Of a stretch of 33,438 nucleotides of DNA, positions 4,023-32,822 are shown piece by piece. The notes below the pieces were generated by a model. It was given only the letters and a program-made list of their open reading frames with translations, did not search any database and was not told the origin of the DNA. Each line of letters starts with the position of its first letter. Position 1 is the first letter of the stretch. The position numbers and the translations under genes are program-made. The stretch is from a virus: positions 1 to 33,438 of IMG/VR virus record IMGVR_UViG_3300010370_000124. One strand, given 5' to 3'.

Positions 4023-7000
4023 TTAATAATCGTAGAGACCATTCATGTATTTTTGTTCCATTTTATCAAGTCTATCAGAAAGTTCTTTGATTGCTTCAAT
4101 GAGAAGTGGAACGAGTTTTTCATACTTAACAACTAGGATTTCTTCACCCTCAAGTTCTTCTGTCTTAACTGCTTCTGGGAGAACTTTTTGTACCTCTTGA
4201 GCGGAAACACCAACTTGAGTGACACCTTTAACGAATCCAAGTTTCTCTGCCTTATCATTCCATGTGAATGTAAATCCATTTAGGGATAGAACTTTATCAA
4301 GGGCATTTTCAATTGTTACTCTATCGGTCTTTAAAGTATCATCTGATGCAGCAGCTGCAAAAGCAGTAATATCTCCTCTTACAAATAGACTTGCACTTGT
4401 TGGAGTTGTTATGTTTGGTCTCAAGTAGAAACTTGAGCAAACTCTCATCGTATCATTAGCAGTTGATGCGGAATTTGCAGAGAAAACTGGGAAGTGATTT
4501 GCTGATGAATCTGTTGCAGTGACATCTACAGTGTCCGTAGATGTTGAATTTCCACTGAAAGCACCTATAAATGTTGTTGCGGTTACTGTTCCAGATACGT
4601 TTACACCATGAGCTCCGACAACTAATCCACTTCCTGCAGCACATTGAACATTACTTGAGAATGTAGTAACTCCACTTACTGTAAGACCATTACTTGAGAT
4701 TCTTACACCATCTCCAACCCACAATTGTCTTGCGACACCCAAACCACCCGTTAATTGTACTGAACCAGTGGAAGAACTGGTTGATTGTGTATTGTTACTT
4801 ACAACTAAAGTACCAGCAATAGAAGAATTTCCAGTCGCACCATCAACGGTAAATCTATTTGTATTGACTACGATGGACCCAGTAGCACTTATGTTTAGAG
4901 TATTTAAATTGACAGTTCCTGCACTGAAACCACCGCCACTTCTAATAACAACACTAGCACCTGTAGTATCTGTTGAAGAAGTATCTAAACCATCCAGGTA
5001 ATCAGCATTTAAGTTTGTAACTTTAGTTAGAGAGCTGACTACAAATGGAGGTGTTCCAGAAACAAGTGTTCCAGTAGCAGTGGATGTATATTGTCTTGCG
5101 GAAACATCTCCAGAAGTTCCACAATTAATATTCATACTTCCTGCAGTTGGATTCGTAGCTCCAGGTCCAAAGGCACTAATAATACCAATGTTTGCATAAA
5201 TTCCCTCACCAGCGCCTGTTCCAGACAACCAGAGTTTACTTCCAATTCTTGCGTTTTGATAGTATAGAACACCACCATTAGCAGCGGTTCCCCCAGAACT
5301 TCCATACAGAGTAGTAATAATACCCGTATTAACATATGCAGTTGGAGCACCCATCCAACCAGTGACAACAGCAGTGGTTGTAAATCCAGTATTAACATAA
5401 GCAGTTGGAGCACCAAACCATCCATCAACAGGTGAAGCTGCTCCACCTAGATGAGAGTATCCTACAGTCGGAATGACCAATGTAGTGACAACTCCAATCT
5501 GTGCAAACATGTTGGTTATGACACCAACTGTACTACTAAAGTTTGTTATAACTCCAGCATTAATGTGAGCTAAAGGAGTTGCAAACTGATTATTTGCTCT
5601 GATTCCATTGGAGAATGTATTGGTAATCGTAAGAGTTGTGATTGTTGCAGCAAGACCAGTAATGCAAGTAATTAATCCAACTTGAGAATTTATTGTAGTG
5701 ATTGTAGCTGCAGTACCTGTTTGACAGGTAATAATACCATTTGTGATAAAGGCATCTTTTCTAACGGAAAGAGTGTCAATACCAACGTTATCTCCTCTAA
5801 ATTCTGTTGCTGTAATAATTCCAAGGTCACATCTTAAACTTCCAACAGAAAGTGTTCCTCCTACTGTACTAATTCCACCAAAAACAGAATTAAATGAATT
5901 TTCAAATCTAACTGTTGGATTTGTAAATGTTACTGCATATCCAATAAATTCTGCATTTTGGAATTCTGCAATTGAATTTGCATTGGTATGTCTAATCGTA
6001 TAATTTGTACCAACTCCTGCAAATCTAACAACTTTATTGATATCAATCTCATCAAAGTTTGCATTACCAATTGCTTGAGCCCCAGCAAATGTAACAGCAC
6101 CACCAACATATAAGTTCTTAACTTTTACTGTACCATTGACTTCCAATGCATCTTTAAAGTCAAAGATATCAAAACTCTGTCCGATACCTACTTTATCGAA
6201 AGTTAAGAAGTCACTATTCTTTTCTCTAGAAATCATTCCAAATCTACGCCAATCACTATCGGCATAGACATGTCCGATATATCCACCAGCATCTGGAGTA
6301 GCAAGTAGAGAAATGTCTCCGGACTTTCTAGCATCAGTTGGAGTTGCAATACCAACCGTAATTAGTTTTGGTTGAGAAGCAACACCCTTAACATAAAGAT
6401 CTCTTGTTTCTAAACCATCTTCAGAAGTATTTGTAAGTTTTTGTGAGAAGTTTACTGGACCATAGAATTGTGATGTTTGGTTATTGTTTTCGCCACCTTC
6501 TACAGTTAGTCTCTCTTTAACAACTAAATCATCAAAAATACCGCTATTTCTCTTAACGATTTCTGTATCGGAATCATCTCCAAAATAGGTTACAACAGGA
6601 GCTTCAAGAACTTCTTCTTCACCAGTTGCACCATTAATTTTAGTTGCACCAGAATAAAATTCACCCCTATCATTCATTCCAGTATAAACTACTGTACCAC
6701 CATCCTGCTCTCTTGCCTGTGAAATTGAAATTTCATCATTACTTAAAATTCTATCTTGTTTTATTGGTAGTGCAGTGGAGTAATTACCAGGACCATAGCC
6801 AAGATATTCAAAGGTATGTCCAGAAGCACGAAGAATAGATGGTCTACGTAATTCCATTGGGATAATACGTAGTTTTTTGATGATTGCTCCAGCAACCGCA
6901 GGAACTGCTAAAGTTGAAAACTGACCTCTAATAACTGTAAAACTATCTGCAACTGGATCTGAACCTAAACGAATGATTTCTGATCCAATTAGAACATAAT

Positions 7001-10000
7001 CACCCTTTGCAAATCCACTTGAACTTGCAAATGTAAGGGTTGTATCCGATTGAGTAATTGGTGTAGTTAAAGTAGTAGAAATTCCAGCATAAAGATAATT
7101 AGCTCTTCCACCTAAGTTTTCTTCTCCAGCGCCAAGAGATTTTCCGTTAGCCGAAATACCTCCCTTAAAAACTCTTACTTTGGTAAAATCACTTGATACA
7201 TTTGCAGTTGTAATTCCAGAAGAAAATGTAAAGGTATTAATTCCAATAACTTCACTAACAATGAATTTTTGTGAATAATAATTATTTGTAGATCCAAACC
7301 CTATCAGTTTGAACGAGTTTCCAGGAAGTAAACCATGTGCTTCTGTGCAACTTATTGTTGTAATTCCACTTTGTTTTGTTAAAGTTCCCGTGGCAATTCC
7401 TATAGATGGTCCACAATGTTGGACAAGTGGATATCTATAATCATTTCTATTGAAATAAGTAACACCAATTCCATTTGGATTTAAAATTTCAATACTTCTG
7501 GATGAAGGAATATTGATAATTTTAAATATTCCGTTCATTAAAGGATCTGCAAATCCACTAAGTTCTACAGAATCATTAATACTATTATTAATTTGTGTTA
7601 CTTGAACTACAGCAAAAGAACTTGGAGATCCTGCTGGATACGATGAAATAGTCATCGTATTTCCAACACCATAGGCAGATCCAGAGTCTACAAGTTGAAT
7701 GGACGAAATTGTATTGCCGATAGAAATCGTTGCTTTTACAGATCCATTTCTACCTTCAATTGAACCATTCTCAAGTTCTGCAGAGTAGAGAGTACTTGAT
7801 ACACCAGCCGAATTATTATATCCAGCACCTCCACTTACGAGAGAAATTGATTTGATGGAATTTAAATTATGATCATTATTTGTATAAAGAGTAACAGTTG
7901 TGTTCCCAGTTCCAGTGATTATTGCGCCAGTAATTGCATAACCAATTCTATTGTTGTCTAAGAAATAACTTAAACTTTCTTTTGTCAAAGACAACTTTTT
8001 ATCATTTGTTTGAACCTTTCCTAGGGGAGATAGTTCAGCGTAACTGATAGTTGCTTCTGGATCAATTACAACATTATCTCTATCAACTTGTGGATAAAGA
8101 TTTCTTACATCCTGATTGAATTTTCTTTCACTTATTCCAAATCCAACGTTAGGTTTCGGACTTACACTACCAGCAATTAAAGTTAATTGATATATACCAT
8201 CTTGACCATCAGCACCAGGAATTAATTTTTTAACTTCCTGACTTCTGTATATGAATATACTATCTCTATATTTTTCTCTCTGAACTAAAGGTAAAGCTTC
8301 AATTTGTTGTTGCGTTGATCTTTGGTTGGTTTGATTTAAAAATGTTCCAGGGTCACTACTAAGTCCAACATATTGGAAAGTTCTTGGACTTGGAGTTGAA
8401 TATACTTCAAAAGAACCATTGTATGGTATTAAAGAATTACCCGAAGTATTATTAGAACTTACTATATTAGTTATTTTAACCTTATCCCCAGGAACTAAAT
8501 TATGAGGTACTTCGGTTTTAATTGTTACCGTTCCTCCAGCATAGGCTGCATTAACAATAACTTTGGGGTTTCTTAATTGTGTAGCATCAGAAACTCCAGA
8601 GGTAATAAATGATACTGATCCAATACCAACATTTTTAGATTCTTGTAAAACAAATCCATCAGTTGGAGGTCTTGCATTGGTGAATTCTTTTGGAATTACA
8701 TAACGAACTTTATAAATTCTTTCATCCAAACCTCTATTATCAACTTTTCTCGTTACAAAAGTTGATCCAGTTTGATTGCCTAATATAGAAGTTCCGATAC
8801 CAACAATTCCATCATAAATTGTGTTGAAAAATGTTACTGGTGATCCGGTGATATACCATTGTTTTTCAGTTGTATCATACTGGATTGGATGTCCAGCTTC
8901 TCCTGGAAGTTTATCTGCAACCGCACTAACAATTCTTAATTTTCCTCCTCCATTTGAAATTCCGGTAAGAGTATTTCCAGAGTTTGTATCATTTAAAGTG
9001 GAAGATATTTTAATTTGATTTGCTGATAGTCCTGTTGTATATGCATAATAAATTTTATCTGCTACAATATTGTTTGGAACTTCTCCAGTATCACTATAAA
9101 TTCTTATTTTTTCTCCATTAAAGAGTTGATGAGTCCCTGTTAATGTGAAAATATTATTTACAATACTATTAATTCCTACGTTTCTTCCAACTGCATATAC
9201 TTTTTCAGCAGATGTTGATATTCCGCTTGGAGATTGCATTAAAATTGGACTCTTATAATTATTCTCTTGAGTTCCAATAATAATAGAAAGATTTAACTCT
9301 TCTCCTTTCTTAGCACCAATTTTGTAAGAATCAATTTGAGATGGAGGTACAATGTCAATACTCTTATAACCAGCAAGATATAATCTTTCTGTTTTAGCTG
9401 CTGATACTATTTTTTGAGAATCAAGAGATAACCATGTAACGTTTGTAGTTCTATTTACTGGTTCTCTTGGTGGAATGATATGTGTAATATAACCAACATC
9501 ATCTCTATCAAATGATTCTGGTCTAAATCCTGTGGATTCTAATGATATTGCTCCAAAGTTTGAGTTGGAGTTTGTAATTGATTGGTCACCACCAGATTCA
9601 GCAACAAAGTGTCTAGCGTATCCAATTGCGAAGATAGAAACACACTGAATAATAGCATTATTGCTACATTTCATGTGTGAAGATTCCCAACCATATCTGT
9701 AAATGGCACGAGAATTTATATGTAAAGGTTTATCGTTTTCAGCCGCAGTTATATTATCGTTATAAATTCCAGAAACAGGATCATATATTAAAAATGCATT
9801 ATCATCTTTTTGTAGGGAAATACCAGTAAATTGTGCAGTCAACATGGACTTAAATCCAGTTGCTTTAGATCCATCGGCATGAAGTCCATTCATACCATAT
9901 ACGGATCTCAATGTGCATGAGAAGATATATGGAGATGCCGATGATACACTATCCGATTCTACAATAACACTAGCATCTACAATATCTGCTGGAGATGGTA

Positions 10001-11078
10001 GTGGATTGGAAGGAGTTACTGAAGCAGTAAATGTAAATTCCGTAGAACTGTTTACATTACTTACGAGTAAAGATCCATTATAAGATGTTGTATTGGTAGT
10101 AATTCCGGTTATTAATATTGGTGTATCTCTAAACAATCCATGAGGTTCAGATGTAGTAACAGTAATTGTAGACGTTGGAGTAACTCCATTTCCTGCACGA
10201 ATACTGGTGATTCCAATTTCATCAGCACGAAGATCACCTACAATTCTGTATTCATCAATAGAAGGTTCAAAGTCTGCAGAGACATTTGGGAAATTAGCTA
10301 ATCCTCTACCCGAAGTATCACCATAAGCATAGGTAACTTTTGCATAATACATCTCCAAATCTGTGATGGATAAAGTTTCATTACCCAATCTTGCAAAATT
10401 AACACCATCAGCATATTCAAATGCCGTCAATTTATGGTGGGAATAATTTGGTACAGATTTTCTTCCAGTGGAATCTTTGTAAGCTGCTCTTTGTAAATCT
10501 GCATCAAAAATTGAGAAAGAAGTAAAGTAACATGTACCAGTTACTCTAAAAATAGCAGTTTCAGATACGGCATCATTTAATGGATCTGGCACATACATTG
10601 GACGAATCTTAGTCTTTCTAAGATCTAAACCAACGATTGAAGTACCTCTAGGAAGTATTACTCCACCATAAACTGAGTTGAATTTGTATAATTCATTATT
10701 TTCATCAAAAATATCAAAATTACTTGATTCAGTAAATTCTGAAATAGACGCTCCAGATGTAGTCCAAGAAAAATTTAGATATCTTTTAAATACTGCTGTC
10801 CCTGAAGAATTTTCAATAGAGTGTCCTGGTCTATTATCAATGTAATGAGTTCCAGGATAAACAAGAATTGTCGTAGTATCAATTTTATCGTTTTGTTTTC
10901 CAGATTGATATGAAAATCTTGCTGCTTCTATTAGAGCTCTCTGAATAGTTCTAAAAGGTCTTGTTAATGAGTTACCTCTATTTTCAAAACTATCAGTAGC
11001 GTCAAAGTCTGAAGGGTTTACATAAAGAATATTACCTTCTGCATTCTTTAGGAAATTCTCTAATCTACTTATGGGCAT
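4023..11078 (-). CDS. Giant tail-fibre-like virion protein with C-terminal S74 chaperone domain
   Basis: The product is 2351 aa, the largest in the window. The N-terminus (LYVNPSDFDATDS, RPFRTIQRALIEAARFSY, TILVYPGTHYIDNRPG, about residues 18-85) is a beta-helix head typical of cyanomyovirus structural proteins. The middle consists of beta repeats rich in Gly, Thr, Ile and Ser, including GxGY units and a 21-aa tandem repeat. The last 107 residues are a Peptidase_S74 intramolecular chaperone. Ser2245 and Lys2250 (SDDTLKTD) have the Ser-x4-Lys spacing of the endosialidase catalytic dyad, followed by FTFTWN, VGVSAQEVQKVLPEAV and YEKLVPLLIEAIKEL, then a trimeric coiled coil. The family releases this domain by self-cleavage after folding, so the mature chain would end near residue 2244. 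It is a trimeric fibre or spike by family; the receptor cannot be read from the sequence. Confidence 0.85.
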   Translation of the reverse strand: MPISRLENFLKNAEGNILYVNPSDFDATDSFENRGNSLTRPFRTIQRALIEAARFSYQSGKQNDKIDTTTILVYPGTHYIDNRPGHSIENSSGTAVFKRYLNFSWTTSGASISEFTESSNFDIFDENNELYKFNSVYGGVILPRGTSIVGLDLRKTKIRPMYVPDPLNDAVSETAIFRVTGTCYFTSFSIFDADLQRAAYKDSTGRKSVPNYSHHKLTAFEYADGVNFARLGNETLSITDLEMYYAKVTYAYGDTSGRGLANFPNVSADFEPSIDEYRIVGDLRADEIGITSIRAGNGVTPTSTITVTTSEPHGLFRDTPILITGITTNTTSYNGSLLVSNVNSSTEFTFTASVTPSNPLPSPADIVDASVIVESDSVSSASPYIFSCTLRSVYGMNGLHADGSKATGFKSMLTAQFTGISLQKDDNAFLIYDPVSGIYNDNITAAENDKPLHINSRAIYRYGWESSHMKCSNNAIIQCVSIFAIGYARHFVAESGGDQSITNSNSNFGAISLESTGFRPESFDRDDVGYITHIIPPREPVNRTTNVTWLSLDSQKIVSAAKTERLYLAGYKSIDIVPPSQIDSYKIGAKKGEELNLSIIIGTQENNYKSPILMQSPSGISTSAEKVYAVGRNVGINSIVNNIFTLTGTHQLFNGEKIRIYSDTGEVPNNIVADKIYYAYTTGLSANQIKISSTLNDTNSGNTLTGISNGGGKLRIVSAVADKLPGEAGHPIQYDTTEKQWYITGSPVTFFNTIYDGIVGIGTSILGNQTGSTFVTRKVDNRGLDERIYKVRYVIPKEFTNARPPTDGFVLQESKNVGIGSVSFITSGVSDATQLRNPKVIVNAAYAGGTVTIKTEVPHNLVPGDKVKITNIVSSNNTSGNSLIPYNGSFEVYSTPSPRTFQYVGLSSDPGTFLNQTNQRSTQQQIEALPLVQREKYRDSIFIYRSQEVKKLIPGADGQDGIYQLTLIAGSVSPKPNVGFGISERKFNQDVRNLYPQVDRDNVVIDPEATISYAELSPLGKVQTNDKKLSLTKESLSYFLDNNRIGYAITGAIITGTGNTTVTLYTNNDHNLNSIKSISLVSGGAGYNNSAGVSSTLYSAELENGSIEGRNGSVKATISIGNTISSIQLVDSGSAYGVGNTMTISSYPAGSPSSFAVVQVTQINNSINDSVELSGFADPLMNGIFKIINIPSSRSIEILNPNGIGVTYFNRNDYRYPLVQHCGPSIGIATGTLTKQSGITTISCTEAHGLLPGNSFKLIGFGSTNNYYSQKFIVSEVIGINTFTFSSGITTANVSSDFTKVRVFKGGISANGKSLGAGEENLGGRANYLYAGISTTLTTPITQSDTTLTFASSSGFAKGDYVLIGSEIIRLGSDPVADSFTVIRGQFSTLAVPAVAGAIIKKLRIIPMELRRPSILRASGHTFEYLGYGPGNYSTALPIKQDRILSNDEISISQAREQDGGTVVYTGMNDRGEFYSGATKINGATGEEEVLEAPVVTYFGDDSDTEIVKRNSGIFDDLVVKERLTVEGGENNNQTSQFYGPVNFSQKLTNTSEDGLETRDLYVKGVASQPKLITVGIATPTDARKSGDISLLATPDAGGYIGHVYADSDWRRFGMISREKNSDFLTFDKVGIGQSFDIFDFKDALEVNGTVKVKNLYVGGAVTFAGAQAIGNANFDEIDINKVVRFAGVGTNYTIRHTNANSIAEFQNAEFIGYAVTFTNPTVRFENSFNSVFGGISTVGGTLSVGSLRCDLGIITATEFRGDNVGIDTLSVRKDAFITNGIITCQTGTAATITTINSQVGLITCITGLAATITTLTITNTFSNGIRANNQFATPLAHINAGVITNFSSTVGVITNMFAQIGVVTTLVIPTVGYSHLGGAASPVDGWFGAPTAYVNTGFTTTAVVTGWMGAPTAYVNTGIITTLYGSSGGTAANGGVLYYQNARIGSKLWLSGTGAGEGIYANIGIISAFGPGATNPTAGSMNINCGTSGDVSARQYTSTATGTLVSGTPPFVVSSLTKVTNLNADYLDGLDTSSTDTTGASVVIRSGGGFSAGTVNLNTLNISATGSIVVNTNRFTVDGATGNSSIAGTLVVSNNTQSTSSSTGSVQLTGGLGVARQLWVGDGVRISSNGLTVSGVTTFSSNVQCAAGSGLVVGAHGVNVSGTVTATTFIGAFSGNSTSTDTVDVTATDSSANHFPVFSANSASTANDTMRVCSSFYLRPNITTPTSASLFVRGDITAFAAAASDDTLKTDRVTIENALDKVLSLNGFTFTWNDKAEKLGFVKGVTQVGVSAQEVQKVLPEAVKTEELEGEEILVVKYEKLVPLLIEAIKELSDRLDKMEQKYMNGLYDY
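5311..5423 (-). repeat. 63-base tandem repeat inside the giant fibre gene
   Basis: Two similar copies of about 50 bases start at 5311 and 5374, exactly 63 bases (21 codons) apart. They encode GW(F/M)GAPTAYVNTG(F/I)-x-TT twice. The period fits one added turn of a beta-helix or one trimer layer, and in-frame duplication would lengthen the fibre. Confidence 0.65.
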
Positions 11079-16706: not shown

Positions 16707-17255
16707 TCATTCAAAAAATTTCTGAAACTTTTTAACTGCGCCTAATATTTGATTCAAAATACCAGATTGTTGTTTCTCTCCTTCCGTATTTTGAGTGTTT
16801 TGCATAACTCCAGTTGTGTCTACCGACAATGCTCCTACAGAATATGAGTTTGACATGACCGTATTTAAATTCGTGCCTTTAAAGTTTTGAATAGGTGCTT
16901 GAATTGATACTTGTTTTGCGGAATTTATAGTAACTTCACCACTTCCATCCATTGCGACGATTCTAATATTTCTCGCTCTTAAAATTAAATCCCCGGCTAC
17001 TGCTTCAATTATAACATCTCCGTTCTTAGCTTTTATAATTTTTGCAGGTTCTCCTTCATTAACACCTTCACCCACAGTTTCATAGGAAGTTTTTTTACAA
17101 GCGTCGTATTTGTTTCCTTCTTGTGTATATTCAAATCCCTGTCCGTTATCAGTAAATACTGCGTAATCTATTTTTTTACCAGCAATATCTGGCGTTCCGG
17201 ATTTAACAATAAATCCAGGTCTTTTTTCATAATATTCTTTTGGTTGATCCGTCAT
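16707..17255 (-). CDS. Spike-associated beta-helix protein
   Basis: Starting at ATG 17255, which overlaps the gp5 stop as ATGA, the product is 182 aa. (An ATG two codons earlier, at 17261, is less likely.) The N-terminal part is hydrophilic (PKEYYEKRPGFIVKSGTPDI). The centre, about residues 75-125, has short alternating strands with regular turns: GDVIIEAVAGDLILRARNIR, IVAMDGSGEVTINSAK, VSIQAPI. This pattern resembles the intertwined triple beta-helix of T4 gp5 C-terminal needles and VgrG proteins. The C-terminus is helical (ILNQILGAVKKFQKFFE). The likely role is part of the central membrane-piercing spike, encoded apart from the gp5 OB-domain protein. This is inference from pattern and position. 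Confidence 0.65.
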   Translation of the reverse strand: MTDQPKEYYEKRPGFIVKSGTPDIAGKKIDYAVFTDNGQGFEYTQEGNKYDACKKTSYETVGEGVNEGEPAKIIKAKNGDVIIEAVAGDLILRARNIRIVAMDGSGEVTINSAKQVSIQAPIQNFKGTNLNTVMSNSYSVGALSVDTTGVMQNTQNTEGEKQQSGILNQILGAVKKFQKFFE

Positions 17256-19468
17256 ACACAATCCACCACGTTTGCAAATGTACTTATTCCGACTTTTAGA
17301 GTAGGATTATCCACAATATATTGTGGTACATACTCCATAACAGGATAAAGTATAGCTCCTTGTCCCGTGTTAGTATTTATGGAGATAGTAGGATAGGTCA
17401 AAAATTGTTGTTTACAAGAATTTGGTGATGTAAATCCAATAATAGATCCATTTGAAGTCAATATTGGTTCATATATACAATCTCCAACTTCTATAGTATC
17501 TCCAGAAGTATAACCAATACCAGGACCCTCTATTACTATGGAAGTGACAATTCCAACGGGAGTAGTAGAAACTCCAACATTTGTCGATCCCACTCCAACA
17601 GTTGGGGAAGTTGTTCCGATTCCTGTTCCAGGGATTTCTATTCCATTTAGATTTGTTTGACAATATCCATTCCCAGATTCAACTAAGTAAATCGATTCTA
17701 TATTTCCTTTTGAATTAATAGTTGACTTTGCTAGAGCTCCTTTTCCATAATTTGAATTATCTAGTATTGATATTGTGGGGGGTTTAGTATATCCTTTACC
17801 AGGATTTAAAACTTTAATTGTTAGAATAGAACCATCGGAGCTTGATACTACTGGTATTGCTTTTGCATCAATACCATCCCCATTGATGATTACTTCTGGT
17901 GGAATGCATTTGTAGTATTTTACTCCTATGGGCAATATTGGAGCATCTTCTTGTGTAGATGGATTTATTGCTGTTTGTCTACAATTTGTAAATGGAGTAT
18001 CAGCAGATCCAAACATCGAAAGAAATCCGATTGCTTCATCAATATCGTCCCCAAGGCCTCCAAGAATATCAATATTGTTTAAAGTTTGAGCCCATTTATC
18101 TGATTTGGGGAATTTTACACCACCAAAAGGATCCCAAGTGGAAACACCTTTACATGCTAATGCATCACAATCTAAGAAACTTAAAAGTTGTTGAAGAATA
18201 TTAACAGCACCAGTAATTGTTCCTGTAATAGAACTAATTCCTCCTGCTAACCAGTCAAGTCCAGAAAGTATGGTGCTTAAAACCCCATTTATCATGTCTT
18301 CCAATTTCGATATCAGTGCAGCTACCGTTTCTTCAGCTGCACATCTTGGAATATTTGGTGTTTTTCCTACCAATCCATCTAATAGACCAGCAATAAAATC
18401 CATCAAAGGTCCAAATAGTTTTTCAAAGATACAAAAAATAATATTTAAAATATTTTTTGCTGCCTCAGATATTGGAAGTTGAAGTGGAGATGGAATTGTA
18501 ATACCAAGAAGTTTAAATAACTTTCCTACTAATTTAAAGATATTATCACGCATTCCATTGATGACAAATTTCATAATGGATGCAACTAATCTTGCTACTT
18601 TTTTAATTTGAGATCCAACATTTACTACTACGTTTCTTACTGGATCTATAAATCCTAAAGCAGTTTTTTCTAATCCATTTATAAATTTAATAAAACTCTG
18701 TAAAGCAGCGGTTATTTGAGATAAAACATTATTGCCACAACCATTTTCTCCTTGCACTTCTTCAAATTGTCCTAAAAATGCTGCTTCTCCCATTTCATCA
18801 TAAAATAACTCATCTTGAGGTATTTGTTGTTGAGGAAGTAAAATACCTGCTAAATTTGAAGTATCGGTAGATAGTGGTTTGAAATCTGGAGATAACTCTA
18901 TACTTCCTACTGCATCTGTAGCAAATTGTGGATTACTATCCATTGTTACCGCTGGACCACCATCATTAGTAGCAGTTGGTACTTCTTTAGAAACTGCTCC
19001 CTTTGGTACTTTGTTTCTGGTTGCTTGAGCTCCAGTTGCAAATGATCCCTTTACGCCAGTAAAAGGATCAAAAGGATTTGGATTTTTTACATTTACAACC
19101 ATAGGACTTCTATGGAAACAAGCCATTACAACAGGTTGTTGAGCTTCTTCTCCATCTAAGAAAAATCCTAATACAGATTCTCCACCAACAAGAGTTGGCA
19201 ATTTACCAAAACCTCCTTGAGCAGGAGCTCCATCGGCAGCACTAGTTAAAATATGAGCCCAAGGTAAATCTTTATCGGGTAATTCATTTGGACTAAAACT
19301 ATGATATCCAATAATCCTTACTTTACATCTATAACCCCAAGCATCTTTTCCATTATCAATGCGAGTTTTTTCATTACGCCAAACCTTAGGGTCTGCAACT
19401 TGACCGATCCACCATATGAATCCATCTTTGCCAATAAAATTAGATTTTAATAAGGATTCTTCAATCAT
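17252..19468 (-). CDS. 5: gp5-like baseplate central spike protein without lysozyme
   Basis: The 738-aa product opens with the gp5 OB-fold domain: FIGKDGFIWWIGQV (11-24), DAWGYRCKVRIIGYHS (42-57), LPWAHILTSAADG (68-80) and VLGFFLDGEEAQQPVVMACF (99-118). These match the gp5 N-terminus that sits on the gp27 hub. No phage-type lysozyme domain follows, unlike T4 gp5 (575 aa). Instead there is a Pro/Ser/Gln linker, a long series of amphipathic helices (about 245-440) and a C-terminal beta part with GxGY repeats (GKGYTKPPTISI near 557-568, GPGIGYTSGD near 648-657). Its start shares one base with the CP12 stop and its stop overlaps the spike gene, so translation is coupled. Wall-cutting activity is probably supplied by the 584-aa protein upstream. 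Confidence 0.85.
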   Translation of the reverse strand: MIEESLLKSNFIGKDGFIWWIGQVADPKVWRNEKTRIDNGKDAWGYRCKVRIIGYHSFSPNELPDKDLPWAHILTSAADGAPAQGGFGKLPTLVGGESVLGFFLDGEEAQQPVVMACFHRSPMVVNVKNPNPFDPFTGVKGSFATGAQATRNKVPKGAVSKEVPTATNDGGPAVTMDSNPQFATDAVGSIELSPDFKPLSTDTSNLAGILLPQQQIPQDELFYDEMGEAAFLGQFEEVQGENGCGNNVLSQITAALQSFIKFINGLEKTALGFIDPVRNVVVNVGSQIKKVARLVASIMKFVINGMRDNIFKLVGKLFKLLGITIPSPLQLPISEAAKNILNIIFCIFEKLFGPLMDFIAGLLDGLVGKTPNIPRCAAEETVAALISKLEDMINGVLSTILSGLDWLAGGISSITGTITGAVNILQQLLSFLDCDALACKGVSTWDPFGGVKFPKSDKWAQTLNNIDILGGLGDDIDEAIGFLSMFGSADTPFTNCRQTAINPSTQEDAPILPIGVKYYKCIPPEVIINGDGIDAKAIPVVSSSDGSILTIKVLNPGKGYTKPPTISILDNSNYGKGALAKSTINSKGNIESIYLVESGNGYCQTNLNGIEIPGTGIGTTSPTVGVGSTNVGVSTTPVGIVTSIVIEGPGIGYTSGDTIEVGDCIYEPILTSNGSIIGFTSPNSCKQQFLTYPTISINTNTGQGAILYPVMEYVPQYIVDNPTLKVGISTFANVVDCV

Positions 19469-27498: not shown

Positions 27499-28950
27499 GT
27501 GGCGTACCAAAACGTTAAACAATCCATCATATCAAGAAATGGAGTTAATTATAATCTCCAATATGACCCTTCCAATGGAAAAGTTCAAATTATACAACAA
27601 AATGCTGCAACTGGAACGGCTCCGATATATCAGGATGGAAATTTTAACTCTTCCGCAAATGCATTAAATTTAACAACCGCAGATAGACAATCAATACACA
27701 ATCAAGTTCAAGAATTAGTAAGAAATTCTCATACAAAGGCAGGAGGAAACGCAAAAAAAGCAGTGTTACCTCCATGGGCTCAATTACAAAATCAAGGACA
27801 AGCTCCAGGTCAAACATCAACAAATCCAGCAAATGGAACTGCAATTACAAATAATGGATCGGGTGGTGGTTTAGGTAATATAGTAAATACCGCTGTAAAT
27901 CCAGCAGAAGCATTTAAAAATTTTGCTGTTAATGGAGATAAATTTGGAGTTCCAAATGAAAAAGAGTTATTTAATGGAAAAAAGGTTTCTCTCATGTATC
28001 CAATTGACATGCGTAGAGAAACCCAAGACAATTTTGTAATATCTCAATATAGATATAAACCATCAAAAGCTGATGCTATTTTTGGCGGCGCAGAAGTTGC
28101 AAAACAGATTTTAAGTGGAGGGTTGCAGACATCATCAAATTTAGAAACATTAATTGGTACTGTATATTTGCCTATGCCAAATGGAGTTCGTGATTCTAAT
28201 AATGTAGACTGGGGTGGAGATGCAATGAATAATCTTGCAGCAGCTTCTGCGGCAAATACCACTAAAAATATGGTAGGTCAGGGAGCCCTTGCAGCAGCTG
28301 GAAGTTTATTTGGCGTTGGCGCTGATAAAGCACTGGCTGCAGCAAATATGATTGCCTTATTAAAAAATCAAGCTATAAGTGAGGAGTTAAGTCTTCTGGT
28401 TGGATCAGGCGCAGCATCTAAATTATTAAAAATGCAAGGATTTGGAGTAGATACCGAGTCTCTCCTTGCAAGAGGAGCGGGAATTGTTCCCAATTCAAAC
28501 TTGGAACTTCTCTTCAATAGTCCTGTTCTTAGACAATTTAATTTTACTTACCGATTATCAGCTAGAAGTGAAAAAGAAGCAGAAACTATAAGAAGAATTA
28601 TAAGATTTTTCAAACAAGGGATGGCTCCTAAAAAAGCAACTGGAAAAGCAGGACAAGCTTCCTTCTTCTTAGGAACTCCAAATGTTTTTAAATTGGAATA
28701 TAGAACAGGAAGAAATTCTGCAATTGATGGTGTAAATAAATTTAAAACCTGTGCATTAACACAATTCCAATGTGATTATACTCCTGATGGTTTTTGGGCA
28801 GCTTATGATAAAGGACAACCACTTTCAACGACAATCTCAATGGGATTTTATGAGTTGGAAGCAATATACGACACAGATTATCAAGAAAATAATATTTTTG
28901 AAACAAGAGATGATCTATTCTCAGTCAGCAATAATTCGGTAGGATACTAA
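27499..28950 (+). CDS. 48: gp48 baseplate tail-tube cap
   Basis: The 483-aa product has a disordered, Gln/Asn-rich first 160 residues and a Gly/Ala-rich helical middle. The C-terminal third matches T4 gp48 (364 aa) in layout. VLRQFNFTYRLSARSEKEAE (about 346-365) corresponds to the gp48 segment FTWDLTPRSTED. FFLGTPNVFKLEYRTG follows, then FQCDYTPDGFWAAYD and TISMGFYELEAIYDTDY at the end. Earlier strands include SLMYPIDMRRETQDNFVISQ. gp48 sits on the baseplate with gp54 and starts tube growth. It begins with GTG directly after the previous TAA, with GGAG ten bases upstream. The extra length relative to T4 lies in the N-terminal and central parts. Confidence 0.8.
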   Translation: MAYQNVKQSIISRNGVNYNLQYDPSNGKVQIIQQNAATGTAPIYQDGNFNSSANALNLTTADRQSIHNQVQELVRNSHTKAGGNAKKAVLPPWAQLQNQGQAPGQTSTNPANGTAITNNGSGGGLGNIVNTAVNPAEAFKNFAVNGDKFGVPNEKELFNGKKVSLMYPIDMRRETQDNFVISQYRYKPSKADAIFGGAEVAKQILSGGLQTSSNLETLIGTVYLPMPNGVRDSNNVDWGGDAMNNLAAASAANTTKNMVGQGALAAAGSLFGVGADKALAAANMIALLKNQAISEELSLLVGSGAASKLLKMQGFGVDTESLLARGAGIVPNSNLELLFNSPVLRQFNFTYRLSARSEKEAETIRRIIRFFKQGMAPKKATGKAGQASFFLGTPNVFKLEYRTGRNSAIDGVNKFKTCALTQFQCDYTPDGFWAAYDKGQPLSTTISMGFYELEAIYDTDYQENNIFETRDDLFSVSNNSVGY

Positions 28951-28951
28951 A

Positions 28952-31288
28952 ATGGGATACTTCAAAGAATTACCAAACTTACAAGTTCTAAACAGAACTA
29001 AAAATAATGTTTCTAGTGATGAAGTTGTTATCATTAAAAATTTCTTTAGAAAACCAAAAGTTCGTGAAGACTTTTTATCGATATTCGCTGCGTTTGAATA
29101 CTACTCAATTACTGGCAATGAAAGACCAGAACAAATTGCAGAAAAAATATATGGTGATCCAGAACTAGATTGGGTAATTTTAATTACAAATAACATCACA
29201 AATGTTCAAGAACAATGGCCTTTAGATCTGGATTCATTCAACAGATACATGTTGGATAAGTATGGATCGGAAGAAGCATTTTCAAATATTAAACACTATG
29301 AAACTTTATCAGTCAAAGACTCTTTCAATAGAGAAGTATTTCCCGCTGGTTTGATTGTAGATGAAGCATTTTACAATGCACCAGAATTTGAAAGTATGGA
29401 TGAACTTCCTCCTGGAATAACATTTCCTCCAATTTACGTTCCAGGAACGACCGCAACAGCATCAGCAGTAGTAGGTGCAGGACAATCCATCGGTAGTATT
29501 GTTATCACTAATAGTGGAGCTGGATATCAACAAGCTCCTAATGTTTATATTTCAGCTCCACCAGTAACCGCAAATGCTTCAGCAAGTTGTGTTATCAATA
29601 ATTTTGGAGTTTCATCAATAGTCAGTCTAGTTGGTGGCCAAGGATATAATTCTTCCCCAAATGTTTCTATATCTACTGCACCATCTTCAAAACAAGCAAC
29701 TGCTTCTTCTGGATTAGGGACAGGAATTTTCTATGATCAAGTAGTTTCTATTCATAGTTTAGATGGAGGGGCTGGATATGGGTTAACTTCTCCCACCGTT
29801 ACTTTTTCTCCTCCCCCAAATATTATCCAAGGATCATATCTAAATCAGTCATCAGGTTCCGCTGGAAATCAAATAGAAGGATTTTACATCAGACCAGATG
29901 GAGCAAAGTTATATACAGCTAGTATTTTTGGAGCAAATCAAATTAAAGAATATAGTTTTTTAAATCCATGGAATGTAACTTCGATCATTTTTGAAAAAGA
30001 AATTGATGTAAGTTCAGAGTTTAGTTATTGTAGTGGAGTTGAGTTTAGTCCAGATGGTTCTAAAATGTACATCACTGGAGGCCAAGGAGGGTCTTATAAA
30101 CTAATATCTTATCAACTTTCTACTCCATGGGACATATACACAGCTGCAAAATGGCATGAAGTCTCCACAACAACTCCTGGTGGTGTAAGATTTAAACCAG
30201 ATGGAACAATGTTTTACTTCCTGGAAGCAGAAAGTCCCGATGTTGTTAAACAATATTCTCTTTCTAGTCCATGGAACTTAACGACAAGATCTGGATCTCC
30301 GATTGGAGTTTATAATATAACGACAGTTTCGGGCGAAAATAGAATGTTGGGAATATCATTTTTATCTGATGGAACTAAAATGTTTGCTACCGGTGAAGAC
30401 AATTCTAGTATATTTGAATTTACTTTTGGTACTCCTTGGGACATTACAACTCTTAATTACGCTCTTTCATTTTATGTTGGAGATAAAATTACAAATCCCG
30501 TTGATGTTTTTATTAGACCAGACAAAGAAAAATTCATTGCTGGAGGTGGAGTGGGAGATAAAATGTATGAATATAACGTTGTATCTTTAGCAAAAGGGTT
30601 TTCTACAGTTTTAAATGGATCTGTCAATTCTATTCAAATTACACAACCTGGAGCGGGATACACTGAAGCTCCGACGGTAACTCTAAGTTCTCCATATCCT
30701 GCAGTTAATGCTACAGCAGTTGCAAACGTATCTGCGGGAATTGTCACGAGTATTTCTATTACAAATGCTGGTTTTGGATATACAATTGCCCCATCACTTA
30801 CGATAGATCCTGCTCCAATTTCTAGACAAGCGACAGCAATAGCTTCAATATCAAATACTGGAATCTCATCAATTCGTATCCTTGATGGCGGTTTAAATTA
30901 TGTTAACGCAATAACAGTAACTTTTGATCCAGAACCTCAAGATATTTTAAATGTTGAAGAAGGAGAAATTTATACACAAGTACAAAAGATATGGAAATGG
31001 TCTGGTACTGAGTGGAAAGAGCAAGTTACTGATGAATTTAAGTATCTAGATCCAACAACCAACACTTTGATTAAAGTTCCTGGAAATGCGATGTCAAAAC
31101 CAATAACAAATTATGAATATGAAGTTCAACTAAATGAGAAAAAAAGACAAATTGTAATTTTAAAACCACAATACCTATCAACATTAATTCAAGATTTAAG
31201 AAATATGATGAAGTATGATCCAGATATAAAAGATTATATCTCCGATAATTTGAAGTCTACATATAATGAGAAGCTAACGGGAGTTTAA
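28952..31288 (+). CDS. 53: gp53 baseplate wedge protein with large beta-propeller-like insert
   Basis: The 778-aa product is about four times the length of T4 gp53 (196 aa). The gp53 core is at both ends: FFRKPKVREDFLSIFAAFEY (31-50), RPEQIAEKIYGDPELDWVIL (58-77) and LDLDSFNRYMLDKYG (91-105), then at the C-terminus YEYEVQLNEKKRQIVILKPQ (721-740) and LIQDLRNMMKY (745-755). Between them lie three GxGY-type repeats (about 180-290) and five PDG-type repeats starting near 314, 366, 415, 471 and 522. Four of these end in a PW motif (NPWNVTS, TPWDIYT, SPWNLTT, TPWDITT), as in beta-propellers. Three more GxGY repeats follow (about 560-662). AGGA lies eight bases before the ATG. gp53 joins neighbouring wedges, so the insert may protrude from the baseplate. 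Confidence 0.85.
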   Translation: MGYFKELPNLQVLNRTKNNVSSDEVVIIKNFFRKPKVREDFLSIFAAFEYYSITGNERPEQIAEKIYGDPELDWVILITNNITNVQEQWPLDLDSFNRYMLDKYGSEEAFSNIKHYETLSVKDSFNREVFPAGLIVDEAFYNAPEFESMDELPPGITFPPIYVPGTTATASAVVGAGQSIGSIVITNSGAGYQQAPNVYISAPPVTANASASCVINNFGVSSIVSLVGGQGYNSSPNVSISTAPSSKQATASSGLGTGIFYDQVVSIHSLDGGAGYGLTSPTVTFSPPPNIIQGSYLNQSSGSAGNQIEGFYIRPDGAKLYTASIFGANQIKEYSFLNPWNVTSIIFEKEIDVSSEFSYCSGVEFSPDGSKMYITGGQGGSYKLISYQLSTPWDIYTAAKWHEVSTTTPGGVRFKPDGTMFYFLEAESPDVVKQYSLSSPWNLTTRSGSPIGVYNITTVSGENRMLGISFLSDGTKMFATGEDNSSIFEFTFGTPWDITTLNYALSFYVGDKITNPVDVFIRPDKEKFIAGGGVGDKMYEYNVVSLAKGFSTVLNGSVNSIQITQPGAGYTEAPTVTLSSPYPAVNATAVANVSAGIVTSISITNAGFGYTIAPSLTIDPAPISRQATAIASISNTGISSIRILDGGLNYVNAITVTFDPEPQDILNVEEGEIYTQVQKIWKWSGTEWKEQVTDEFKYLDPTTNTLIKVPGNAMSKPITNYEYEVQLNEKKRQIVILKPQYLSTLIQDLRNMMKYDPDIKDYISDNLKSTYNEKLTGV
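29834..30601 (+). repeat. Five-fold PDG/PW repeat region (beta-propeller-like) in gp53
   Basis: Five protein repeats of 49-56 residues span about residues 295-550. Each has a turn like RPDGAKLY, SPDGSKMY, KPDGTMFY, LSDGTKMF or RPDKEKFI, and the first four end in PW(N/D)(V/I/L). The DNA copies are divergent, so the duplication is old or the module arrived as a unit. Confidence 0.75.
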
Positions 31289-31291
31289 TTT

Positions 31292-31573
31292 ATGAGTCAT
31301 GTGAAAGTTTTGTTTATTGCAAAAGTAAAAAATTTGAATAAAGAATACGAAGAATACAATGAAAATCTATTCAGTAGTGCTAAGAACTTACCAGGATTTT
31401 TAGGTATAACTAGCGAACAAATAGATGATATTGAAATTACTACAAGTATGTGGAAAAGCAAGGAAGATGTAATAAATTGGTCAAGAGATCCAGAACATAT
31501 AGAAGCCAAAAAAAGAGTCAATGAGTGGTATCATTGGGTAAAAGGAATTCATTTAGAATGTGTAGATGATTGA
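31292..31573 (+). CDS. Antibiotic-biosynthesis-monooxygenase (ABM) fold protein
   Basis: The 93-aa product has the size and pattern of the dimeric alpha/beta-barrel ABM family. A first strand VKVLFIAKVK (4-13) is followed by a helix, then LPGFLGITSEQIDDIEITTS (33-52), a W-x-S-x-E turn (MWKSKEDVINWSRDPEHIEA, 53-72), and a last helix with VNEWYHWVKGIHLEC. Members include small oxygenases, haem-degrading enzymes and stress proteins. No specific substrate is evident and no metal site is obvious. It begins three bases after the gp53 stop and overlaps the radical SAM gene by eight bases, so the two are probably co-translated and may act in one pathway. Confidence 0.7.
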   Translation: MSHVKVLFIAKVKNLNKEYEEYNENLFSSAKNLPGFLGITSEQIDDIEITTSMWKSKEDVINWSRDPEHIEAKKRVNEWYHWVKGIHLECVDD

Positions 31574-32822
31574 TACTAGTAAAATTAATCCAAATAATAA
31601 GGTTTTTTGTGTCGCTCCTTGGTTAAGTTTAAATATTAATCAAAATGGAAATGTTCAACCTTGTTGTAATGCCAATTTGTCTTTTGGTAATATTCTTAAA
31701 GATAATATAGAAACAATTTGGAACAATGAGCCAATAAAGAAATTTAGAGAAGGGATGGTAGAAAAAATCCCTCAAGATGCCTGTAGATTTTGTTATGAAA
31801 AAGAATTATCAGGTCAAAAATCTTTACGAGAAGTTTTTAACGAATCATTTTTTGAAGAAGGAAAACAATTCATTTATGATACTAATGATGATTATTCTGT
31901 AAATGAATTTGGTTTCATCCATTGGGACGTGAAATTAAGTAATAAATGTAATTTTAAGTGTAGAACTTGTTGTCCAGAATCCAGTTCAAGTATTGAATTA
32001 GAATTTAATGGTAAAATTTCTGGATTGTATGACTTTGCAGACATTAAATTTAATAAAATTAAACCTTACATTGATAAAGTAAATCATTTATATTTCTCTG
32101 GTGGAGAACCATTAATAATAGAAGAACATTATCAAATGCTTTTTATGTTGATTAAACTGAAAAAAAATAAACAATCAAATTTTTATCTTACATATAACAC
32201 CAATTTTAGTACTCTTACATATAAAAAAATTCACGTTTTCGATATTTGGGATGTATTTAATTATGTGCAAGTACGTATTAGTGTTGATGGTATGGGAAAT
32301 AGGGGAGAATTAATAAGAAATGGATTTAAATGGGACCGATTTGTATCTAATGTAAAAGAATTTAATCAAAAATTTTCTAATAAATCGGATACTCACGGAC
32401 TATGGTTTGATTGTACAGTTCAAGCTTTAAATGTATTTGATGTGGTTACCTTGCACCAAACTCTTTTTAAAGAAGGACTATTAACAAATATAGATAATTT
32501 CCATTTAAATTATTTACATGGACCGAGAAATCTTTCAGTATGGATTTTAGACAAAAAAACAAAAGAAAAAGCAAAAGCAAATATACAAGATCACATTAAT
32601 AATTTTTTGATTCCGAATCAAGCAGTAAAAACATTACGTGATTTTGAAAGTCTTATAAAGTTTATCGATTTATATCAGGATCAGAATTTAATACCAGACT
32701 TTGTACACACCATGTCAGATCTTGATAAAAAAAGAAATGAAAATGTATTTAAAACTTTTCCAGAACTAAAAGACACTTGGATAACGTATTTAAACTATAA
32801 AAAAAATCTCCCACCGAAGTAG
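31566..32822 (+). CDS. Radical SAM protein with N-terminal twitch/SPASM-like domain
   Basis: The 418-aa product has two Cys-rich parts. The N-terminal one has CVAPWLSLNINQNGNVQPCC (15-34), FGNILKDNIETIWN (40-53) and CRFC (73-76). This is the twitch/SPASM pattern for an auxiliary Fe-S cluster. The radical SAM core follows: NKCNFKCRTCC (126-136) holds the C-x3-C-x2-C motif (C128, C132, C135), and YFSGGEPLII (176-185) the GGE motif that binds SAM. VQVRISVDGMG (about 245-255) is a later core strand. Twitch-type enzymes modify peptides or small molecules; related phage copies have no known substrate. In most relatives the auxiliary domain follows the core, so its position first is notable. It overlaps the ABM gene and ends the plus-strand unit. 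Confidence 0.85.
   Translation: MIDTSKINPNNKVFCVAPWLSLNINQNGNVQPCCNANLSFGNILKDNIETIWNNEPIKKFREGMVEKIPQDACRFCYEKELSGQKSLREVFNESFFEEGKQFIYDTNDDYSVNEFGFIHWDVKLSNKCNFKCRTCCPESSSSIELEFNGKISGLYDFADIKFNKIKPYIDKVNHLYFSGGEPLIIEEHYQMLFMLIKLKKNKQSNFYLTYNTNFSTLTYKKIHVFDIWDVFNYVQVRISVDGMGNRGELIRNGFKWDRFVSNVKEFNQKFSNKSDTHGLWFDCTVQALNVFDVVTLHQTLFKEGLLTNIDNFHLNYLHGPRNLSVWILDKKTKEKAKANIQDHINNFLIPNQAVKTLRDFESLIKFIDLYQDQNLIPDFVHTMSDLDKKRNENVFKTFPELKDTWITYLNYKKNLPPK

Follow-up and report, generated by a model that had tools for sequence, protein, structure and literature searches.

A predicted five-bladed beta-propeller between two GxGY repeat triplets in the baseplate wedge protein gp53 of cyanophages

The stretch of DNA analysed in this study, an IMG/VR record of 33438 bases (hereafter the window), carries an ORF for a T4-type gp53, a baseplate wedge protein, with a core in two parts (positions 28952-31288, plus strand; 778 aa, ATG start). 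Between the two parts lie ~575 residues comprising a predicted five-bladed beta-propeller and, on either side of it, a triplet of GxGY repeats. This region, a slot for accessory sequence, corresponds to a nearly fourfold growth of a small essential baseplate protein, which is usually seen as a minor and unchanging component of the contraction apparatus. Beta-propellers, GxGY modules and gp53 itself are all known. Searches of the open-access literature yielded no account of an insert in gp53 or of a propeller within any protein of the baseplate wedge, nor of how these elements are combined, how widely they occur together or how the slot behaves. The proteins of Sf14 and XM1 labelled 'gp53' are unrelated.

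An earlier note on the same DNA regarded the ORF as an enlarged gp53, and this assignment was borne out by Pfam, PHROGs and the neighbouring genes. Residues 26-103 matched Phage_gp53 in Pfam (PF11246; E 6.7e-12, 45.9 bits against a cut-off of 21), and residues 1-143 matched PHROG 232, 'baseplate wedge subunit' (E 4.6e-55). These matches, together with the family profile and the solved gp53 chains (9f4a_AL and 5hx2_F), which align to residues 32-141, define the N-terminal part of the core (N-core; residues 1-142, positions 28952-29377). In the alignment, the N-core is the counterpart of T4-type gp53 up to residue ~140. The C-terminal part (C-core; residues 717-778, positions 31100-31285) lies beyond the slot and was identified by the gp53 family profile (residues 717-770, iE 1.6e-26) and by a weak but colinear alignment of residues 718-769 to the solved chains, in which residues 153-189 of T4 gp53 are the counterpart. 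The earlier note divided the core at residues ~150 and ~665, with an insert of ~510 residues. The division itself stands, but the profile match moves the start of the C-core to residue ~717. The insert block therefore extends from residue ~143 to ~716 and takes in a WxWxGxxW module that had been counted with the core.

The gp53 ORF is directly preceded by homologues of gp4, gp2 and gp48, as identified by PHROG matches. The gp48 gene for the tail tube cap (27499-28950, plus strand; PHROG 230) is the conserved upstream neighbour, and the order gp4-gp2-gp48-gp53 is that of S-SCSM2R and other cyanophages. Most of the genome records nearest to the window are Synechococcus or Prochlorococcus myophages. 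Downstream, gp53 is directly followed by a gene for a 93-aa protein with no PHROG match (31292-31573, plus strand) and then by one for a radical SAM protein (31566-32822, plus strand; phrog_14086, E 7e-20), whereas a gp32-type gene is the usual follower in the other cyanophages examined. Elsewhere in the window, a 2351-aa ORF on the minus strand (4023-11078) ends in a Peptidase_S74 intramolecular chaperone and probably encodes a tail spike or fibre of very large size.

The block, on the plus strand throughout, has a symmetrical plan. A linker recognised in alignments (residues 143-165, positions 29378-29446) is followed by the N-side GxGY triplet (residues 166-290, positions 29447-29821), the propeller region of 259 residues (291-549, positions 29822-30598), the C-side GxGY triplet (residues 550-667, positions 30599-30952) and the WxWxGxxW module (residues 668-716, positions 30953-31099), which was assigned to the insert from alignments and because it is missing together with the rest of the block in the loci L185-L187. 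Six GxGY or GxGY-like motifs start at residues 189, 229 and 273 on the N-side and at 567, 607 and 647 on the C-side. In between, DG-K-M/L-Y/F motifs occur at 316, 368, 417 and 473, and a degenerate fifth copy (RPDKEKF, residues 521-527) completes five units of ~50 aa. Self-alignment scores were 105 for the N-side triplet, 141 for the propeller and 126 for the C-side triplet (maxima among shuffled copies 49, 44 and 49, respectively); the gp53 core scored 27, no better than its shuffled copies. The plan of three GxGY repeats, five repeats of ~50 aa and three more GxGY repeats, as first described from the sequence, is thus confirmed, except that the fifth of the supposed PDG/PW repeats is degenerate and lacks PW. 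The two triplets share 43% identity over 115 columns and are, on this comparison, homologous to each other.

GxGY repeats are not confined to gp53. A gp5-like spike/lysozyme protein in the window (ORF 17252-19468, minus strand) has repeats of the same family at residues 557, 599 and 650, within residues ~518-676 (positions 17441-17917), and such repeats also occur in several further baseplate, neck and fibre proteins. When the C-side triplet of gp53 was folded alone, the global model was poor (pTM 0.33) and its structural matches were too weak to be of use (best Z score 2.2). Short strands at residues 575-578, 616-618 and 656-659 were present in the model of the full-length protein but absent from that of the isolated triplet, a difference that could be explained if they pair with the N-side triplet.

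The assignment of a propeller rests on AlphaFold and structural comparison, because Pfam matches remained below threshold (PD40 at best 18.8 against a cut-off of 20.9 bits, SGL at best 24.3 against 26.3) and a search of the PHROGs gave no match for this region. With an alignment of 47 sequences, made of the window protein and those of the other loci, as input, the model of the full gp53 reached a pLDDT of 86.5 overall and ~90-96 over the insert, while its pTM of 0.53 means that the relative placement of the domains is not reliable. In the propeller region we counted 20-21 predicted strands (within residues 294-554), and their order fits five four-stranded blades, with the strand at 294-299 completing blade 5. 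After re-alignment of the Foldseek matches, the top solved fold was 3mbr (Z 19.7, rmsd 3.0 over 218 of 236 residues), followed by 3nol (Z 18.8); both are five-bladed glutaminyl cyclases. The third was well below (Z 16.0). The identity to the glutaminyl cyclases was only 10-11%, and the fold match by itself shows no function. In addition, a sequence profile of the propeller found the YVTN surface-layer propeller 1l0q (E 8e-9). Residues 291-549 are therefore predicted to be a five-bladed beta-propeller, and the AlphaFold check proposed in the earlier note came out in favour of this fold.

We compared the length of the slot across 105 gp53 proteins having both core parts. In most of them it comprised 18-50 residues. 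Mid-sized slots were found in L075, L079 and L097 (134-141 residues), in L037, L063 and L068 (180-291) and in L071 (290), and long ones in S-H9-2 (482) and in the propeller forms (573-595, and ~700 in some of them). gp53 proteins thus share neither one length nor one insert, in agreement with the earlier view of the insert as accessory rather than core. The cargo differs as well. The slot of S-H9-2 contains GxGY repeats, a Reelin-subrepeat-B-like domain and degenerate GxGY repeats, and that of L071 a Reelin-like domain without GxGY. Four gp53 proteins of ~900 aa (L132, 363-3059; L135, 3-2579; L137, 4119-6809; L146, 2038-4755) have a further, cupredoxin-like domain of ~105 residues within their second GxGY triplet. 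Where type-1 copper sites have their ligands, this domain retains H, C, H and M (HPFWIK ... YYYNCQFHAAM), and it matches the end of a PHROG for a baseplate wedge / tail fibre connector. Growth of another kind is seen in gp53 of S-CAM22 (L013, 2495-3427) and S-SSM6b (L014, 2495-3475), where a low-complexity tail at the C-terminus runs out in GGGYGGGY.

A natural case of presence and absence is the pair of near-identical phages S-H9-2 (L009, 3001-5025) and L186 (3001-3657), in which the DNA flanking the difference is 86% and 83% identical on the two sides. The two genes differ cleanly by the block, about 1.4-1.48 kb in the former against 110 bases in the latter, and the block, GxGY-cargo-GxGY-WxW, has thus been kept or is missing as a whole; the gp53 proteins of L185-L187 are 219 aa long and lack it entirely. 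These data bear in two ways on the proposal in the earlier note that the GxGY array is the older element and received the propeller later. In its favour, S-H9-2 has GxGY repeats on both sides of another cargo, but we found no bare array of six repeats among the gp53 proteins, and the block behaves as all or none in the S-H9-2/L186 pair. In one kind of locus, gp53 consists of two ORFs, with the break lying exactly at the slot (12 of 12 loci: L023, 4001-5124; L029, 1520-2638; and L024, L025, L034, L040, L042, L044, L049, L051, L058 and L061). The first ORF encodes the N-core with cargo (~280 aa); a few bases further on, an ATG of its own opens the second, which encodes a C-core of ~97 aa. This separate start, together with a reading frame that differs from locus to locus, led us to reject a programmed frameshift. 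The spread of lengths, the exchange of cargo and the split genes together show that the slot tolerates insertion, exchange and breaks of the chain, and it is most naturally read as a surface loop.

On the tree of the core, propeller-bearing gp53 proteins fall in two groups, and a single origin was rejected (AU test, p 4e-9); the tree of gp48 likewise separates the two groups. Distances in the propeller correlated with those in the core (0.89), also for the insert against the core within the groups (r 0.85), and between the two groups the insert is at least as divergent as the core. The presence of the insert in both groups is thus old. With an insert at least as divergent between clades as the core, one early gain followed by many losses is indistinguishable from an old transfer. 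A recent transfer into this genome is not supported, as the GC3 of the propeller (0.189) is close to that of gp48 (0.182). Against the closest distinct relatives, L002 and L105, dN/dS was 0.065-0.093 for the propeller and 0.041-0.075 for the N-core. Purifying selection acts on the insert, whose divergence follows that of the core, so that, unlike a typical host-range tip, it is not hypervariable. The earlier expectation of a variable insert between constant ends holds between lineages but fails within the lineage of the window, where the insert is conserved. Across 57 unique propellers, three inner-strand positions were nearly or completely invariant, namely R413 (57/57), E/D364 (57/57) and D518 (56/57). 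E364 and R413 occupy equivalent positions on the innermost strand of adjacent blades, where they may make up a binding site or help to maintain the fold.

A search of IMG/VR with a propeller profile matched 178 loci, and the best 80 of the 178 all carry the propeller inside gp53, a count biased by the fact that the profile was made from gp53 propellers. The only exceptions among these 80 were truncations at contig ends and one ORF broken by a change of frame. Among the isolates in the phage collection, S-SCSM2R alone has a propeller within gp53. Genes of the psbA/psbD family, encoding photosystem reaction-centre proteins, were found in 6 of the 14 propeller contigs tested, and a 97-kb relative with an 88% identical gp53 is among the contigs carrying such genes; these phages are therefore cyanophages.

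What the block does in the virion can be approached from these observations. T4 gp53 is incorporated into the wedge, with six copies per baseplate, and triggers the association of wedges (PMC3004832). We propose, with confidence that is about evenly balanced, that the block in the gp53 loop projects from the baseplate and shows six propellers, which make low-affinity contact with a conserved ligand on the host surface. The core would do its normal job of joining the wedges, in six copies per baseplate, with the accessory block sitting in the one loop between N-core and C-core. As this loop tolerates insertion and chain breaks, the block most likely extends outward from the baseplate, where each propeller could take part in a many-fold contact with lipopolysaccharide or an S-layer-type glycan. 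Such contact would help to seat the baseplate ahead of contraction and would not serve to select the strain. Contact with a host-surface ligand is favoured because of the propellers of phage phi11 and of the related propellers in fibre-like proteins. That the propellers face outward and meet glycans or the host, as the earlier note suggested, we still infer, with indirect support from the fold of phi11 and the propellers in tail-fibre-like genes. A broader reading, on which we are more tentative, is that the gp53 loop is a general and long-lived docking slot of cyanophage baseplates for cassettes of stalk and cargo; whole cassettes (GxGY stalk, cargo, GxGY stalk and WxWxG) would enter, leave or be swapped, the paired triplets would make one stalk carrying the cargo outward, and the cargo would contribute a further, conserved stage of contact with the host at the baseplate itself, distinct from that made by the tail fibres.

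The slow evolution of the insert speaks against a strain-choosing tip, and leaves as a serious rival the idea that the propeller is an internal docking platform for a virion protein (a short tail fibre, a gp9- or gp10-type connector or another wedge protein) rather than for the host. Purifying selection in step with the core suits a conserved ligand and a virion partner equally well, and the invariant inner-strand residues also fit a fixed protein partner. The insertion domain of the wedge protein gp31 in cyanophage A-1(L) holds the long tail fibre (PMC10966104), and GxGY repeats recur in other baseplate, neck and fibre proteins, including the gp5-like protein of the window. Nevertheless, close relatives lack the block and different cargos occupy the slot, so that any docking partner would also have to be lost or changed. 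In addition, phages that are unrelated have similar propellers in fibre-like proteins. We regard docking as rather unlikely, albeit the strongest of the rivals. A general decoration, in which the block would be sticky or would stabilise the surface in the manner of Ig-like domains such as Hoc and have no single specific ligand, would fit the variety of the cargo (propeller, Reelin-like, cupredoxin-like and others) on a constant core and the presence of GxGY modules in many virion proteins. R413, E/D364 and D518 together with the low dN/dS suggest a specific site (or a structural role) instead, and we consider this explanation improbable.

It is quite improbable, again, that the propeller is an enzyme acting on envelope carbohydrate or peptide. 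The nearest solved folds are indeed enzymes (glutaminyl cyclase, paraoxonase and Drp35), and conserved charged residues stand at equivalent inner-strand positions, but identity is ~10%, the Pfam models SGL and PD40 stay below their cut-offs, and propeller folds are reused for many functions. The pTM of the full model might raise the suspicion that the region is not a propeller or that the ORF is mis-assembled. High local confidence, structural matches that are consistently propellers, and the same architecture in 80 independent loci (the best of 178) and in the isolate S-SCSM2R make this scarcely credible.

If the propellers contact the host surface as we propose, gp53 is a candidate for cases in which baseplates, rather than fibres, touch cyanobacterial surfaces, and gp53 may serve as a display site in phages represented by 178 matching environmental loci (the best 80 checked), some of them clearly cyanophages. 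S-SCSM2R, the host of which is Synechococcus WH7803, and the S-H9-2/L186 pair offer natural comparisons with and without the insert. A loop that takes up ~575 residues, other cargo or a chain break is also informative for baseplate assembly.

T4 gp53 (PF11246, PHROG 232; PDB 5hx2/5iv5) shares with the protein of the window the N-core, the C-core, the gp48 neighbour and its place in the wedge. It has 196 aa in total, whereas here ~575 residues separate the points matching T4 residues ~140 and ~153. The closest isolate counterpart, gp53 of S-SCSM2R (PQ898602, XQU49932.1; 780 aa), has the same architecture throughout, 46% identity and the same gene neighbours, and its record is annotated as baseplate wedge protein 53 only, with no domain named. 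gp53 of S-H9-2 (675 aa) shares the slot, GxGY repeats on both sides and the WxWxG module, but its cargo is the Reelin-subrepeat-B-like domain in place of the propeller.

Five-bladed propellers have been described in the baseplate of phi11, where they belong to the receptor-binding protein Gp45 and probably bind cell-wall sugar (PMC4901313). The published top DALI match of that propeller is 3nol, the second-ranked match in the present study, and its N-terminal strand closes blade 5 (PMC4901313). The likeness to Gp45 is by way of this shared nearest fold and not by sequence similarity. Moreover, Gp45 comes from a siphophage and is a protein in its own right, trimeric and fibre-like, whereas the propeller here is an insert within a wedge protein, and neither the sequence nor the model of gp53 contains an N-terminal coiled-coil stem or a C-terminal tower of the phi11 type. 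Propeller repeats of the family seen in gp53 (SDGTKMY...LSTPWDxxTAS) occur at 25-35% identity in fibre-like proteins of the Lentibacter phage ICBM2, the Roseobacter phages CRP-9, CRP-13 and CRP-738, and S-SKS1. These propellers lie outside gp53, in some cases as several sets of repeats in tandem; that of the podophage ICBM2 is in a 404-aa protein with a tail-fibre-like N-terminus, adjoining the gene for the tail assembly chaperone. gp31 of A-1(L) is likewise a cyanophage wedge protein carrying an accessory domain, but its insert comprises ~100 residues and is placed in gp31, not in gp53.
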